Positions 1,656 to 5,400 of a stretch of 64,000 nucleotides of DNA are shown one piece after another. Both the position numbers and the translations under genes were made by a program. How positions within the stretch are numbered: position 1 is the first letter of the stretch; each line of letters opens with the position of its first letter. This DNA is from Rubripirellula tenax (GTDB lineage: Bacteria; Planctomycetota; Planctomycetia; Pirellulales; Pirellulaceae). The stretch covers positions 528,372 through 592,371 of the forward strand of contig NZ_SJPW01000004.1 in the NCBI RefSeq assembly GCF_007860125.1, read 5' to 3'. The notes under the pieces were generated by a model. The model had not been told where the DNA came from. It made no database searches and saw only the letters and a program-made list of their open reading frames with translations.

Positions 1656-2483
1656 ATGGCTTATCTTGATACAACCGACTGGCAACTTCATCCCGAGTTG
1701 CGAGACGAACTACTTGGCGAAAAGTTTGGCGAGTTCTATATGTTGGAAGTCATGGAGAGGGCAATGGAACTGCTGCATCGACATCTGCGCACAGGCACGA
1801 TCTACGAGCACACGAAGCGTATCCTGGACGAGTATCCGCCGATTGAATTGACCGATCCCATTCATGGCTACGAGACGACTGATCTGACGGACTTATTCAA
1901 GCTTGGGAAGTTTCGCTACGATGGCGATGAAGGTCGGCTTTGTGTTTGCTCCATGACGCCTTATCAGTGCGAATTCGCCATTGGATCGGCCCGTTTGCAC
2001 GACAATAGCATCAACATGAACTGGCGTTACTTTCTAGAAGTAGCAAACACAAGTCCAAAAGTGTTTCCAAGCGACCCAGTCGGTCGGCAGCGTTTGGCCT
2101 GGGAAGTGGCGGGCATTGTGCTGCATGAAGTTGTACATAATCATGGTTTCTCGCACCCAGACTATTGGGACGTTATCGACGGCAGGGCGACGACGTTGCC
2201 GAATTTGATTGAGGCCAGGGAGTCCGAATTTGATCCGAAGTTTGAGTATTTCCGGACACTTCCCTGTGTTGCCGAGCAAGCTGTTTATCTAATCGCAAAA
2301 GATGACTTCGCAGGTACGCGCTATGATCCTTCTCGTAACCGACGCTGGCCTACACCCTGCGGCTGTCAGCTTCTGCGCCCGCCGAGAAAGGATGGTCCGC
2401 ATGGAGGAATGGCAATTGAAATACCCGAGCGAAACAGTCAGGAAAAGCTAGTTCGCGTTCGCCGCCAAGGAGATGGACTCTAA
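1656..2483 (+). CDS. Putative zinc metallopeptidase (metzincin motif)
   Basis: A 275-residue protein of unknown family with one clear motif: HEVVHNHGFSH at residues 157-167, an exact HExxHxxGxxH metzincin zinc site (three His ligands, Glu158 as general base). There is no signal peptide, so it probably acts in the cytoplasm. The N-terminal 150 residues are acidic with a Cys pair (LCVCSM, about 95-100). The C-terminal 60 residues are basic and may be disordered. It follows the origin directly, and its end overlaps the convergent DnaQ-fold gene by 36 bases. A short motif can arise by chance in a fold that is not a peptidase, but its placement in a hydrophobic helix (VAGIVLHEVVH) is right. Substrate unknown. 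Confidence 0.55.
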   Translation: MAYLDTTDWQLHPELRDELLGEKFGEFYMLEVMERAMELLHRHLRTGTIYEHTKRILDEYPPIELTDPIHGYETTDLTDLFKLGKFRYDGDEGRLCVCSMTPYQCEFAIGSARLHDNSINMNWRYFLEVANTSPKVFPSDPVGRQRLAWEVAGIVLHEVVHNHGFSHPDYWDVIDGRATTLPNLIEARESEFDPKFEYFRTLPCVAEQAVYLIAKDDFAGTRYDPSRNRRWPTPCGCQLLRPPRKDGPHGGMAIEIPERNSQEKLVRVRRQGDGL

Positions 2484-3116
2484 TTGACGAGCCGGAATCG
2501 CCGCAGAGCTTCTGGGCATCCAACGCTGCAAGGCCCGGTAGATCGCGAGATTCGCTTCAACCTTGGTCAGGAGGTCATGCTTAACCGTTTGGCGAATTTC
2601 TACGCCAAAGTAGTCTGCCAAAGTCGCGAGCCGGTAGTTTGATACTGGAGTCATCTGCACGTCTTCATAGAGCAACCAGGCCGCCCGCTGCATTATGCAG
2701 AGCGGACGAGGCGACGCGGGAAAGTACGCTCGATGACGTAAAAACCAATTGCGAAGGAATGCTAATTTCGCGGTTGCGTTGTGCGCAACCAACTGAGCGG
2801 TAGGGGAATTCTCTCTTACACCACCAAATGCATCAAGGGTTGAGTGTTGCTGTAAGAAGTTCTGCACGCAAACAAGGGCGTCTTGTTCAAGCAACTCGCA
2901 ATGTCGCCAAGTTCGGCGATCATAAGTTCCGCCGAAGAACGAACGCGGATCTGCGTCGCTTTGACGGAACCGGATCTTCGCTTCAAAGCGATCAATCTCC
3001 CGTAGGCTTTGGTCGACCGCAATGGCCGCGATCTGGATGATCGGACGGTCCGTCTCTTCGCCTGCTGCGACGAGATCGAAGAAGACTAACCGTTGATCGA
3101 CTCTTTTGGGATCCAT
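2448..3116 (-). CDS. DnaQ-like exonuclease-fold protein, probably inactive
   Basis: A 222-residue protein resembling DEDD 3'-5' exonucleases (DnaQ/epsilon). It starts VFFDLVAAGEET.RPIIQIAAIAVD, matching the first beta strands of the fold (FDxETTG...IxxIAA). It then has LVAHNATAKLAFL, matching HNAxFDxxFL, and SNYRLATLADYFGVE...HDLLTKVEANL, matching the LxxLcxxxgi...HxAxxDA region. The key acidic residues are changed: DxE becomes DLV, the HNAxFD Asp becomes Lys, and the HxxxxD Asp becomes Lys. A catalytic role is therefore unlikely; a structural or nucleic-acid-binding role, or decay, is more likely. It converges on and overlaps the metzincin-motif gene. Confidence 0.5.
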   Translation of the reverse strand: MDPKRVDQRLVFFDLVAAGEETDRPIIQIAAIAVDQSLREIDRFEAKIRFRQSDADPRSFFGGTYDRRTWRHCELLEQDALVCVQNFLQQHSTLDAFGGVRENSPTAQLVAHNATAKLAFLRNWFLRHRAYFPASPRPLCIMQRAAWLLYEDVQMTPVSNYRLATLADYFGVEIRQTVKHDLLTKVEANLAIYRALQRWMPRSSAAIPARQLESISLAANAN

Positions 3117-3389
3117 GTAACGCAGGTATCATCTTCCGATGCGTTTGTCCATGAACTGCGAATCGTACAAGTCGAATGAAGTTTGAAATCGCTTCAGCTA
3201 GGAGCAAATCTGCTGCTGACAAGTTTATCCTTGCCTAACTTTGGCGTTGCGCTATTGAAAACTCAGAGGCTGGGCACGGATTCCCGGCTTCGGCTGTCGT
3301 TTACGTTGAACGTGCTGCTGCAAGCGTGTCGCAAATTCGATTCGCAAGTGGTGGCGAGCATGACAAACTTCGATAGCCAATCGCACCTG

Positions 3390-4500
3390 GTAAACCTTGG
3401 CTTACCACCAAGGCTAAGGGCGCGGGGTTAACCTCCCGTGAAGCGATTGGCCCGTAGAGCTGGATGCATCGAGAGGTGCTTGTCCAGTTCGACGGAGGCT
3501 TCGTTGAGTAATCCGGTTACGTTTCACTGGCCTCGTATGCCAGAGATTTCTGAACCGAGTAATCCAACGATTCGATCCGATGAGATTGATCCCGCTGGGG
3601 ACTGTATTCCAGATCGGGGGCGATGCGGAAAAACCTCGCCGCGTTCTTGTCGAACGCGGGTTTGAGGCCGTCAATCTCCAAAGCAGGTGAGGTTTAATCA
3701 TGAGAATGATGAGTAATCCTGCACACGGGGTTCGGGGTCATCGACTTCGTTCAACGTGTCCGACGTGGGGAGCTTCGAGCCTGGCGACAGGCCGAACCGA
3801 GCGTGACTTGACTCGGGGACTGCTGGCAAATCCAGCGGCTGTGAATAGCTCAACTATGAAAGGCCCGCGAGGGCTTGTCGGTGAACTTTGCGAAAGACGC
3901 TGCCGAGCAGCGAAAGACCTTGGTCGATGGGTAAGGGGATGCTTCCATGTTCGGTCCCCAGAAATGCGAGACGGTTCAATTGAACTTGATTCGCTAAACG
4001 ATGCTGGCTTTGACGAGCCATGCATACGGCCAACGTTCCTCCCGCTAAAACGGGATAGCGACGTGATTCGCAAGGTGAAGGAATTGACTAACGCAGGAAG
4101 TTCAGCGGCAGCCGGTGTGGTTACCGGTGCCCGGAGCGAGTGTAGACTCGCGAGTCATCCGGGTGTTTCAAACGCCGTTGAATGGGAGTGTGGTCCAAGT
4201 AGAGAGTCGAACGAGAATCGGGCGGAAGCTCGATTTTTTGTTTGGGCGATGTATCCGGCAAGGCAGTCGGGACTCGTTGCTGTCGTAACAGGTGGTGCTG
4301 ACGGCGATAGCACGACGAAAGGACTGACGGGCAGTATGTAGCTGTCGAAGTTTTGTGTTGTTGACTGGAGTTTTCGGTCAACGGTCCCTGAAGAGGCGCG
4401 AGCGGCCTAAGAAGACTTGTGCTGACGCACGAGCCTTCTGAGGCAGCGGATCGACGGCGGACAAGCGGAGTGCGTCTGCACTCAACTTGTCAGCCGACCG
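3390..4500 (+). ncRNA. Candidate large structured RNA (about 1.1 kb)
   Basis: No convincing gene lies here; the long open frames read like translated RNA (Arg/Ser/Gly-rich, no family pattern). Many perfect local hairpins occur: 3395-3413, 3639-3659 (8 bp), 3779-3792 (GCGA tetraloop), 3822-3836, 3861-3876 (GCGA tetraloop), 3898-3912 (6 bp), 4041-4054, 4112-4127, a two-part stem 4130-4163 (6 bp outer, 6 bp inner), 4216-4235 (8 bp, GGAA tetraloop) and 4460-4491 (GACAAG/CTTGTC enclosing GAGTGC/GCACTC). GNRA loops on the plus strand fit plus-strand transcription. It lies just upstream of the conserved basic protein. It could be a group II intron-like RNA without a reverse transcriptase, or a giant noncoding RNA of the HEARO/GOLLD/ROOL kind. 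I see no diagnostic domain V. Exact ends are not defined. Confidence 0.5.
4216..4239 (+). terminator. Hairpin with GGAA tetraloop and T run
   Basis: AATCGGGC and GCTCGATT form an 8-bp stem with one G-U pair around GGAA, followed directly by Ts (TTTTTT from 4234). It looks like a rho-independent terminator but may be an internal element of the structured RNA. Confidence 0.4.
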
Positions 4501-4525
4501 GTTTTCTTTGGTGACGGGCAGTATG
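4325..4525 (+). repeat. 14-base direct repeat pair
   Basis: TGACGGGCAGTATG occurs at 4325-4338 and again at 4512-4525, near the 3' part and just past the last strong hairpin of the candidate RNA. It may mark element boundaries or paired RNA motifs. Confidence 0.4.
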
Positions 4526-4719
4526 AATTAGCGTGGGCCAATTCAAGAATATGGCACCGCGCATTTTCGATTGCTCGTTTAAGGCATCGATTGTGTCGGC
4601 TTTGATGCACTTGGTGAAAGAGACCGATGGTTTTGCCTTTTCGGTTAACGGCTTTTTGGAAGGACTGTGCCACAAACAATCCTTCCCATTTGGTCTTTCT
4701 CACTTCGGCATGGAGGCAC

Positions 4720-5400
4720 ATGAAATATCGCGTCGAAACGACATCCATTCAGGGGTTCATTCAGCAAATCGCCTGCTCCTACCTTCGCCACGGCTATTGG
4801 TTTTACGTTCGTGGATCTATTCCACCAGACAAAGATCCATTCGTCATCGATGAGAAACTGCTTTCCAAGTACAAGATCGCCGTAAGCGAATCAACGAGGG
4901 CACGACGCAAAAAAGGTGGGCGAGCCAACTTGCAACTCATTCGCCATCAAAACGTATTTGTAATCATGGCTACTAAAGGCATTCATCCGTTTTTTGAACT
5001 CGAGTCCAAGACGATTCGAGACATTCGGCACACGCCGCTGCAATACGCCGGTTACAGCGTCAGCTACAAGCCAGGTGGACGAAAGAAAGACGGAAGCCGT
5101 GATGACAAATGGCATGCACATGTGGCCCTGACACGGAGTTTCTATCTAGACCTAAAGGCGACATTCACAGAGCGAGCCAAGGTGGACTCGGCCGAAAGGC
5201 TTGCGTTAGCGTTTTACGAATTGTCAGTTGCTCCGTACGCTCCGATCCGACGACAATTGCTCACAATCCATCGCGAGGTAAATAGAATCCGAAAGATTGC
5301 TGGTCGGACGCAAATTCCGACGGACGTACTTCCGCTCCGACGAAAGGTCGTTCGGCCTTTCGAGAGACCCATTTATCGCCAGACGTCAAAAATACGATGA
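4720..5400 (+). CDS. Conserved basic protein of unknown function
   Basis: A 226-residue basic protein. The ATG at 4720 is chosen because GGAGG lies at 4712-4716; the same GGAGGYACATGAA start context is used by the RepA-like gene at 72. It reads as a compact fold: SIQGFIQQIACSYLRHGYWFYVRG (about 10-32), IPPDKDP, STRARRKKGGRANLQLIRH (about 60-78), FVIMATKGIHPFFE (about 81-95), and a C-terminal region with APIRRQLLTIHREVNRIRK and PLRRKVVRPFERP. I associate this pattern with uncharacterised planctomycete proteins but cannot verify it. The many Arg/Lys clusters suggest nucleic-acid binding. Its position just after the structured RNA suggests they form one unit. It is not a reverse transcriptase, HNH or IscB-type protein as far as can be read. 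Confidence 0.6.
   Translation: MKYRVETTSIQGFIQQIACSYLRHGYWFYVRGSIPPDKDPFVIDEKLLSKYKIAVSESTRARRKKGGRANLQLIRHQNVFVIMATKGIHPFFELESKTIRDIRHTPLQYAGYSVSYKPGGRKKDGSRDDKWHAHVALTRSFYLDLKATFTERAKVDSAERLALAFYELSVAPYAPIRRQLLTIHREVNRIRKIAGRTQIPTDVLPLRRKVVRPFERPIYRQTSKIR

Follow-up and report, generated by a model that had tools for sequence, protein, structure and literature searches.

The planctomycete Rubripirellula tenax carries, within a 64,000-nucleotide (nt) stretch of its genome (contig NZ_SJPW01000004.1, positions 528,372 to 592,371; hereafter the window), a large structured RNA at positions 3393–4562, followed on the same strand by a gene for a small basic protein at 4720–5400. We assign a probability of about 0.8 to the reading that the RNA is a circularly permuted (CP) group II ribozyme and the gene its partner acpG, working together in the manner proposed below. 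The CP group II class (‘T-large’) and its partner AcpG are already known, having been described in 2021 in the article by Roth et al. (PMC8637638). Added here are this lineage, a 3′ hairpin complementary to exon-binding site 1 (EBS1), a reading of Domain 4 (D4) as split by the permutation, and a predicted maturase-like fold for AcpG.

Results

Group II domains in permuted order

A first-pass annotation of the window had described 3390–4500 as dense structured RNA containing hairpins with GNRA loops and no credible gene, with a conserved basic protein downstream, and all of this was borne out. Structure without the character of a gene extends slightly further, over approximately 3393–4562. Folding z-scores were −3.3 for 3440–3990 and −6.8 for 3991–4500 (20 home-made shuffles each), and the same test placed the flanking stretches near chance (−1.1 for 2450–3000, −0.3 for 4760–5310). 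A 213-amino-acid (aa) frame at 3700–4341 is broken by stops in homologues: the aligned segment, in a frame uncorrected for insertions and deletions, has 3–17 stops in 63 of 65 RNAs and one in the remaining two, counting the window’s own terminal stop. One of the GNRA loops is the GAGA loop of Domain 5 (D5).

Related loci were collected with the protein at 4720–5400 as query, and 65 of the upstream RNAs were aligned with MAFFT on sequence alone, with no structure information. These are the loci with a D5 motif, the bulge of which was required to start with U, and enough sequence before D5. Excluded are the cyanobacterial, Planococcus and Thermus RNAs, along with loci for which nhmmer gave the only match. 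In a home-made, R-scape-like test, with a null that preserves the tree and the substitution counts and E-values from an exponential-tail fit, 74 column pairs covary at E < 0.05, and 73 of them are at least 80% canonical. The weakest significant score (69.7) exceeds the top score of 15 null alignments (62.3). The covarying pairs mark P1, D5, Domain 6 (D6), the base and arms of Domain 1 (D1), Domain 2 (D2) and Domain 3 (D3). The first-pass annotation had proposed this comparison as a check on its RNA, together with a search of Rfam, which gave a partial answer. At gathering score the only family in the window is RF00029 (group II D5-D6), at 3455–3581 on the forward strand (41.7 bits, E 8.3e-5); up to E 5, the sole other match within 3000–5000 is a frameshift element at 4662–4687 (E 1.8), far below cut-off. 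RF00029 covers D5 and D6 alone and leaves the domain order and the other ~900 nt unexplained, so a known Rfam class accounts for the locus only in part. The same family misses the published CP RNAs of plasmids pTT8 and pPNAP05 up to E 1, and detects those of the window and Leptolyngbya.

The bulk of the structure follows D5-D6, the point at which an ordinary group II intron would have ended. The order on one strand is D5-D6, a predicted 36-nt circle, then D1-D2-D3 (Table 1). The D5 triad is AGC in 59 of the 65 RNAs and CGC in four, and its bulge is UU in 37 and UC in 28, which together account for all 65. Every RNA has an A at 3575 in D6, where the predicted structure would have it bulge; a covarying D6 pair, 3505/3566, reaches E 1e-7. 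The D1 basal stem (3624–3627/4092–4095) is paired in 65, 65, 64 and 65 RNAs. The contact between P2 and D2 covaries at its centre (3431/4121, E 0.026) and is paired at 3431 in 64/64, at 3432 in 63/64 and at 3433 in 61/65; its outer pairs are poorly conserved (3430 in 44/64, 3429 in 17/63). In the hairpin just before acpG, positions 4662–4664 and 4666 are paired in 59–63 of 64–65 RNAs and the other inner pairs in 41–49, with the outermost two pairs aligned in only 17–18 of 65. No significant covarying pair across the 65 loci joins P1 to the 3′ end or D3 to D1, the partners of two pseudoknots that the text of Roth et al. calls phylogenetically more restricted (PMC8637638).

A further helix, 3450–3454/4328–4332, is paired in 61, 64, 65, 64 and 63 of the 65 RNAs, using C-G, U-A, A-U and G-C types. 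An equivalent can be drawn by eye in pPNAP05 (six pairs, 132–137 with 832–837 of the collected locus) and in pTT8 (four pairs). Ordinary group II introns carry the maturase gene in D4, and the base of this domain forms the helix that separates D3 from D5. From its position and pairing, 3450–3454/4328–4332 is best read as a split D4; since the D3–D5 helix of an ordinary intron is the D4 base, the permutation break would lie inside D4. By position, the text of Roth et al. assigns D4 to a 3′ stem-loop (PMC8637638). A perfect 14-nt direct repeat occupies 4325–4338 and 4512–4525, and its second copy might offer an alternative partner to the pre-D5 segment, because the first contains the D4 5′ strand.

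Predicted splice sites, EBS1 and a 3′ hairpin

The motif GGGCGA is present in 64 of the 65 RNAs. The circle predicted in these 64 measures 12–189 nt (median 32), and the linker falls within 15–86 nt in 58. The D1 loop at 3947–3952 pairs with the last six nt of the circle, intron-binding site 1 (IBS1), at a mean of 4.50 of 6 positions, against 3.83 after permutation (n = 64; 0 of 2000 permutations reach the observed mean), and we identify it as EBS1 because of this significant excess. The window’s own IBS1–EBS1 pairing is only 4 of 6, a point against the reading of the locus as a CP ribozyme with its partner.

The loop of the 3′ hairpin matches EBS1 at all six positions in 62 of the 65 RNAs. 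The mean is 5.89 of 6 and drops to 4.42 on permutation, with none of 2000 permutations as high. Three pairs covary (E 6e-7 to 2e-3), and none of 60 permutations of the arms attained the observed stem stability. This contact was not found in the article text of Roth et al. (PMC8637638). The hairpin perhaps acts as a lock over EBS1, a reading suggested by its transcription after the catalytic domains and by its pairing, which is better than that of IBS1. A competing explanation, which we rate as possible though short of an even chance, is that the hairpin is a substrate cut by the branched ribozyme between ribozyme and acpG, or a clamp holding the ends. Near-universal six-pair complementarity, stronger than that of IBS1, would suit either role, and CP RNAs are thought to need extra clamps, according to the text of Roth et al. 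(PMC8637638). The letters that follow the hairpin loop do not favour a substrate: by eye there is no GGGCG or GUGYG, and AGU is usual. No observation made on the hairpin speaks against a clamp.

AcpG resembles group II maturases in predicted fold

Judged by its relatives, the acpG start is best placed at 4720, giving a 226-aa protein with 45 lysine and arginine against 20 aspartate and glutamate residues. In 78 of 80 related loci the frame is open and complete over 195 aa or more. Comparison of family profiles with hhalign matched the protein to TTHC007 of the Thermus plasmid pTT8 (probability 91.6, E 8e-7; score 51.0 against at most 18.0 for decoys), in a collinear alignment of 188 columns at 19% identity. 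A plain family hidden Markov model searched against the frames of pTT8 with hmmsearch left TTHC007 non-significant (E 1.2); profile–profile comparison alone detects it. By this profile evidence the downstream protein is a remote AcpG, the published partner of CP group II RNA.

Pfam, NCBIfam and PADLOC gave no match for the window protein. The protein alignment comprises 77 members, namely the window protein plus all of the 78 eligible loci except L125 and L129, and six unrelated Pfam families each match one of the 77 (E 0.013–0.079); we take these, and two PDB chains matching at E 0.11 and 0.39, as noise. A structure search of BFVD returned weak matches, several of them named RNA-dependent RNA polymerases (RdRps) or polyproteins, and two scans of viral contigs with a peptide-pattern prefilter turned up nothing related to Thermus AcpG or to this AcpG family.

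Two AlphaFold models of AcpG (predicted local distance difference test score 94) have their best alignments with group II intron maturases and Prp8, and in both the highest VIA rows are specifically group II reverse transcriptases (RTs) and Prp8-type chains. The aligned length is 157–208 residues for full-length group II and G2L4 chains, with the thumb region included, and 104–110 for chains of the RT domain alone. Each of the 50 rows listed for the second model is an RT-like, RdRp, telomerase or spliceosome chain. AcpG has lost the catalytic aspartate pair: 0 of 77 members have DD in the turn of the hairpin, the motif being placed by strand order. Taken from these models, AcpG is most likely a shrunken, catalytically dead intron-encoded protein, keeping palm and thumb and lacking the aspartate pair.

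Several results speak against a maturase origin. The top Foldseek match of the second model is retron Eco8, not a group II RT, and no Foldseek E-value for either model falls below 1e-3. The second model is only partly independent of the first, because it represents the same protein family, and both cover this family and not Thermus AcpG itself. A single aspartate stands at two turn columns in 10 and 5 of the 77 members, and hhalign against two sets of group II RTs (7, these being above the 350-aa limit, and 18) gave non-significant probabilities of 0.07–0.7%. The best local hhalign alignment (19 columns) places the RT YADD strand on the matching AcpG hairpin, which we have not counted as evidence. 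AcpG might accordingly be a protein unrelated to RTs, resembling an RNA recognition motif (RRM), within a CP system otherwise as published, its RT-palm likeness reflecting a common ferredoxin-like arrangement. The missing sequence signal and the high Foldseek E-values fit such a protein, and designed ferredoxin folds and an RRM pair are among the weak Foldseek matches. We nevertheless consider it unlikely, given the group II RT and Prp8 chains in the highest VIA rows of both models, the aligned thumb region, and the position of the gene after the D4 5′ strand, which is that of an intron-encoded protein.

Linkage and host range

Genome contigs contributed 80 loci, kept from 127 relatives. For linkage we used the 68 with at least 1600 nt upstream; of the 12 left out, nine still match. 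A CP-type D5 (bulge starting with U) precedes acpG on the same strand in 55 of the 68, against 3 matches in 773 kb of other sequence. A sequence profile, which many of the loci themselves helped to build, places the RNA ahead of acpG, in the same orientation, in 66. Covariance model R1, built on D2 to J2/3, has 20 copies in 14 of 60 genomes, and all 20, the window’s own included, lie upstream of and beside an AcpG match. AcpG matches number 24 in 18 of the 60 genomes, again counting the window’s; the four that have no R1 copy comprise three partial matches and one at 31% identity.

Exceptions to the pairing must be set against these figures. Two loci (L114, L123) have no RNA match, and in five others (L062, L085, L125, L130, L133) the match begins inside D1 or later and the sequence available shows no D5-D6; many CP RNAs with no acpG nearby are also reported in the text of Roth et al. 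(PMC8637638). The match in L085 is cut by the sequence edge. In the other four, the D5-D6 part is missing within 3.5 kb upstream, and may be degraded, interrupted further upstream or rearranged.

The RNA–acpG family is mostly planctomycete: 71 of the 80 loci bear that label, five are an unspecified ‘bacterium’, and four are others (a Calditrichota metagenome-assembled genome (MAG), two Acidobacteria-labelled assemblies and the gammaproteobacterium Candidatus Contendobacter), although MAG labels may be wrong. Only 8 of 294 genomes drawn evenly from the phylum have an AcpG match, and the pair is therefore patchy. Seven plasmid records match (four Leptolyngbya, and one each from Calothrix, Planococcus and a planctomycete), a repeated presence that suggests a plasmid-linked role.

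Several loci have unusual arrangements. In two different planctomycete loci a canonical group II intron sits at the identical place in the upper D5 stem of the CP ribozyme, forming a twintron; the insert of L071 (~52–2454) has a 617-aa RT-type open reading frame (ORF), and that of L069 (~1508–2170) has no RT ORF and its own D5. The Calothrix plasmid5 carries two CP-type D5 copies, at 148 and 2299 of the locus, 2.2 kb apart on one cyanobacterial plasmid. Planococcus plasmid pA26H1 (5.5 kb) has four annotated genes (replication, ion channel, AcpG-like, MerR), together with a D5-like motif and, at the expected position, an RNA match below threshold; it is perhaps a minimal natural system.

Table 1 Features of the RNA–acpG locus in window coordinates
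Feature	Position	Strand	Details
P1 hairpin, 5′ end	3395–3413	+	3397/3411 and 3400/3408 covary
P2 hairpin	3423–3438	+	Loop nt 3429–3433 complementary to D2 loop 4119–4123 (P2-D2 pseudoknot)
Split D4 base stem (best reading), 3′ strand	3450–3454	+	Just before D5; pairs with 4328–4332
Domain 5	3457–3490	+	AGC triad, 5 bp, UU bulge, 5 bp, GAGA loop; RF00029 41.7 bits
Domain 6	3493–3581	+	Predicted branch-site A 3575; ends AU at predicted 3′ splice site; seven covarying pairs
Predicted excised RNA circle, 36 nt	3582–3617	+	Between ..AU and GGGCG; last 6 nt = IBS1
Domain 1	3618–4097	+	Opens with 5′ splice-site motif GGGCG
EBS1 loop of D1	3947–3952	+	Top 6-column window scanned for pairing with the last six nt of the circle
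Domain 2	4100–4183	+	4100/4183, 4101/4182, 4102/4181 and 4131/4162 covary
J2/3 and Domain 3	4184–4324	+	4193/4324, 4194/4323, 4255/4270 and 4279/4311 covary
Split D4 base stem (best reading), 5′ strand	4328–4332	+	Just after D3; 3453/4329 covaries
3′ hairpin cluster	4333–4530	+	4419–4421/4428–4430 covary; inverted repeat 4455–4473/4478–4496
3′ hairpin, possible ‘lock’	4531–4562	+	Loop nt 4547–4552 complementary to EBS1
Hairpin directly before acpG start codon	4658–4686	+	4664/4680 covaries; position like D4A of ordinary introns
acpG	4720–5400	+	Basic protein, 226 aa; predicted fold RT/maturase-like; matched by profile to Thermus AcpG; structure models

Neighbouring genes

An exonuclease-like gene lies upstream on the opposite strand (2448–3116), with weak DEDD-type matches in Pfam, NCBIfam and PADLOC. 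Further upstream, a 442-aa ORF (18–1346) has no match in Pfam, NCBIfam or PLSDB; the plasmid-type origin that the first-pass annotation had placed beside the RNA is not established, because this ORF found no plasmid relative. Of 21 other genomes from the genus, one (G011) retains both genes together with the CP RNA and acpG, and two more (G021, G014) match the 442-aa ORF more weakly. The genome holds group II introns elsewhere, seen as D5 matches and RT genes.

Discussion

In the reaction that we propose, the D6 branch adenosine at 3575 would attack the 5′ splice site (3617/3618) in the transcript, and the freed 3′ end would then attack the 3′ splice site (3581/3582); the products would be an RNA circle of 36 nt and a branched, T-shaped RNA. 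The permutation break in D4 would lie on the far side of the maturase gene, with the D4 5′ strand, the hairpins and acpG still following D3, as in an ORF-bearing intron. AcpG would act as a maturase, helping the RNA to fold and branch, and the 3′ hairpin, made last, would probably take over EBS1 after splicing and limit reversal. The model extrapolates from the domains, splice sites, pairings and gene linkage found in the sequences to the activity of this copy, its circle, the aid of AcpG and the lock.

A more far-reaching interpretation, to which we give roughly even odds, is that the unit is an ORF-bearing group II intron circularly permuted by a break in D4, with AcpG a reduced maturase and the EBS1-capturing hairpin making the reaction one-way. 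The break would have the maturase gene on one side and the D4 3′ strand on the other, as expected from tandem duplication followed by partial loss, and AcpG, reduced to palm and thumb without RT activity, would be a small bacterial parallel to Prp8 that serves a backwards-splicing ribozyme. If AcpG is indeed a reduced maturase, it and the RNA would form a ribonucleoprotein open to testing, a break inside D4 would explain how the permutation arose, and Prp8 would be joined by a second natural example of an RT-like protein retained solely for splicing. Dozens of diverse copies with close RNA–protein linkage and a covarying EBS1 hairpin are available in the planctomycete set, and CP RNAs are of practical interest as natural RNA circularisers.

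It is very improbable that the RNA is the remnant of an ordinary group II intron, a canonical D5-D6 tail standing by chance before an unrelated structured RNA. RF00029 is the sole Rfam match and the genome does contain other group II introns, but across the 65 loci the permuted order has support from D1, which starts directly after GGGCG, and from its basal stem, as well as from D2 and D3, the P2-D2 contact, the split D4 stem and EBS1. The region upstream contains an exonuclease-like gene on the other strand. A canonical intron running from D1 to D6 with outer splice sites was rejected on the permuted covarying order and the opposite-strand ORF upstream. Least credible of all is a known giant RNA (HEARO, GOLLD or ROOL), which the size and dense structure might suggest and which is contradicted by the Rfam results, RF00029 being the only family at gathering score in the window.

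The first-pass annotation had raised an ORF-less group II intron, a giant non-coding RNA and a new RNA–protein mobile element. The RNA is indeed group II-like, ORF-less and very large, but it is not an ordinary intron of this kind because D5-D6 precede D1-D3. The RNA–protein pair likewise stands, with every R1 match beside the gene and any mobility conjectural, but the class is not new, because CP group II RNA and AcpG were described in 2021. Our literature search, with subscription papers and preprints mostly outside its reach and priority accordingly unsettled, showed, among the papers listed, none on the class beyond Roth et al.; other papers listed there use the term ‘circularly permuted group II’ once or twice each.

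Comparison with known systems

As far as the published text describes CP group II RNAs (PMC8637638), the RNA shares with them the order D5-D6-linker-D1-D2-D3, no internal ORF and an AcpG gene nearby. Also shared are a D5 with AGC, five base pairs and a UN bulge; a branch A in D6; GGGCG and NU splice sites flanking a short linker (published as ~15–86 nt); the P2-D2 and EBS1–IBS1 contacts; and occurrence on both plasmids and chromosomes. In vitro branching and circle release are reported there for five other CP members. Unlike the RNAs of that text, ours precede acpG in the same orientation in 66 of 68 loci and have the EBS1-complementary 3′ hairpin; no significant covarying pair marks the P1–3′ end or D3-D1 pseudoknot. 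The hosts named there are Deinococcus-Thermus, Firmicutes and Proteobacteria, compared with 71 of 80 planctomycete loci and cyanobacterial plasmids here. Sequence matches to pPNAP05 (E 0.0026 and 0.0077) and pTT8 (E 0.21 and 1.1) are weak, collinear, and in the right place and strand; R1 scores 15.8 bits (E 0.12) in pPNAP05 and has no match in pTT8. The upper D5 stem has 5 bp with a GAGA loop here versus 6 bp by eye in pTT8.

AcpG was previously reported as homologous to none of the known protein classes. Our AcpG resembles TTHC007 in its collinear profile match and its place beside an RNA of the same class, and differs in sequence (19% identity), length (226 versus 259 aa) and orientation relative to the RNA. 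With group II intron-encoded RT/maturases (PDB 8t2r, 8h2h, 6me0, 7uim, 6ar1) it shares the predicted palm and thumb-like fold and a gene preceded by the D4 5′ strand and a hairpin. The alignment begins only at about residue 102–156 of the maturase chains, so that AcpG lacks a counterpart to their N-terminal part, and it differs further in having no aspartate pair, no endonuclease and no detectable sequence similarity. The RNA shares Domains 1–3, 5 and 6 and the D4 base stem with the canonical bacterial group II intron, and is unlike it in domain order, splice-site order and expected products. Prp8 of the spliceosome, an RT-like protein kept for splicing, is the remaining likeness to AcpG. A structural likeness between maturases and Prp8 is stated in the text of PMC10733145.
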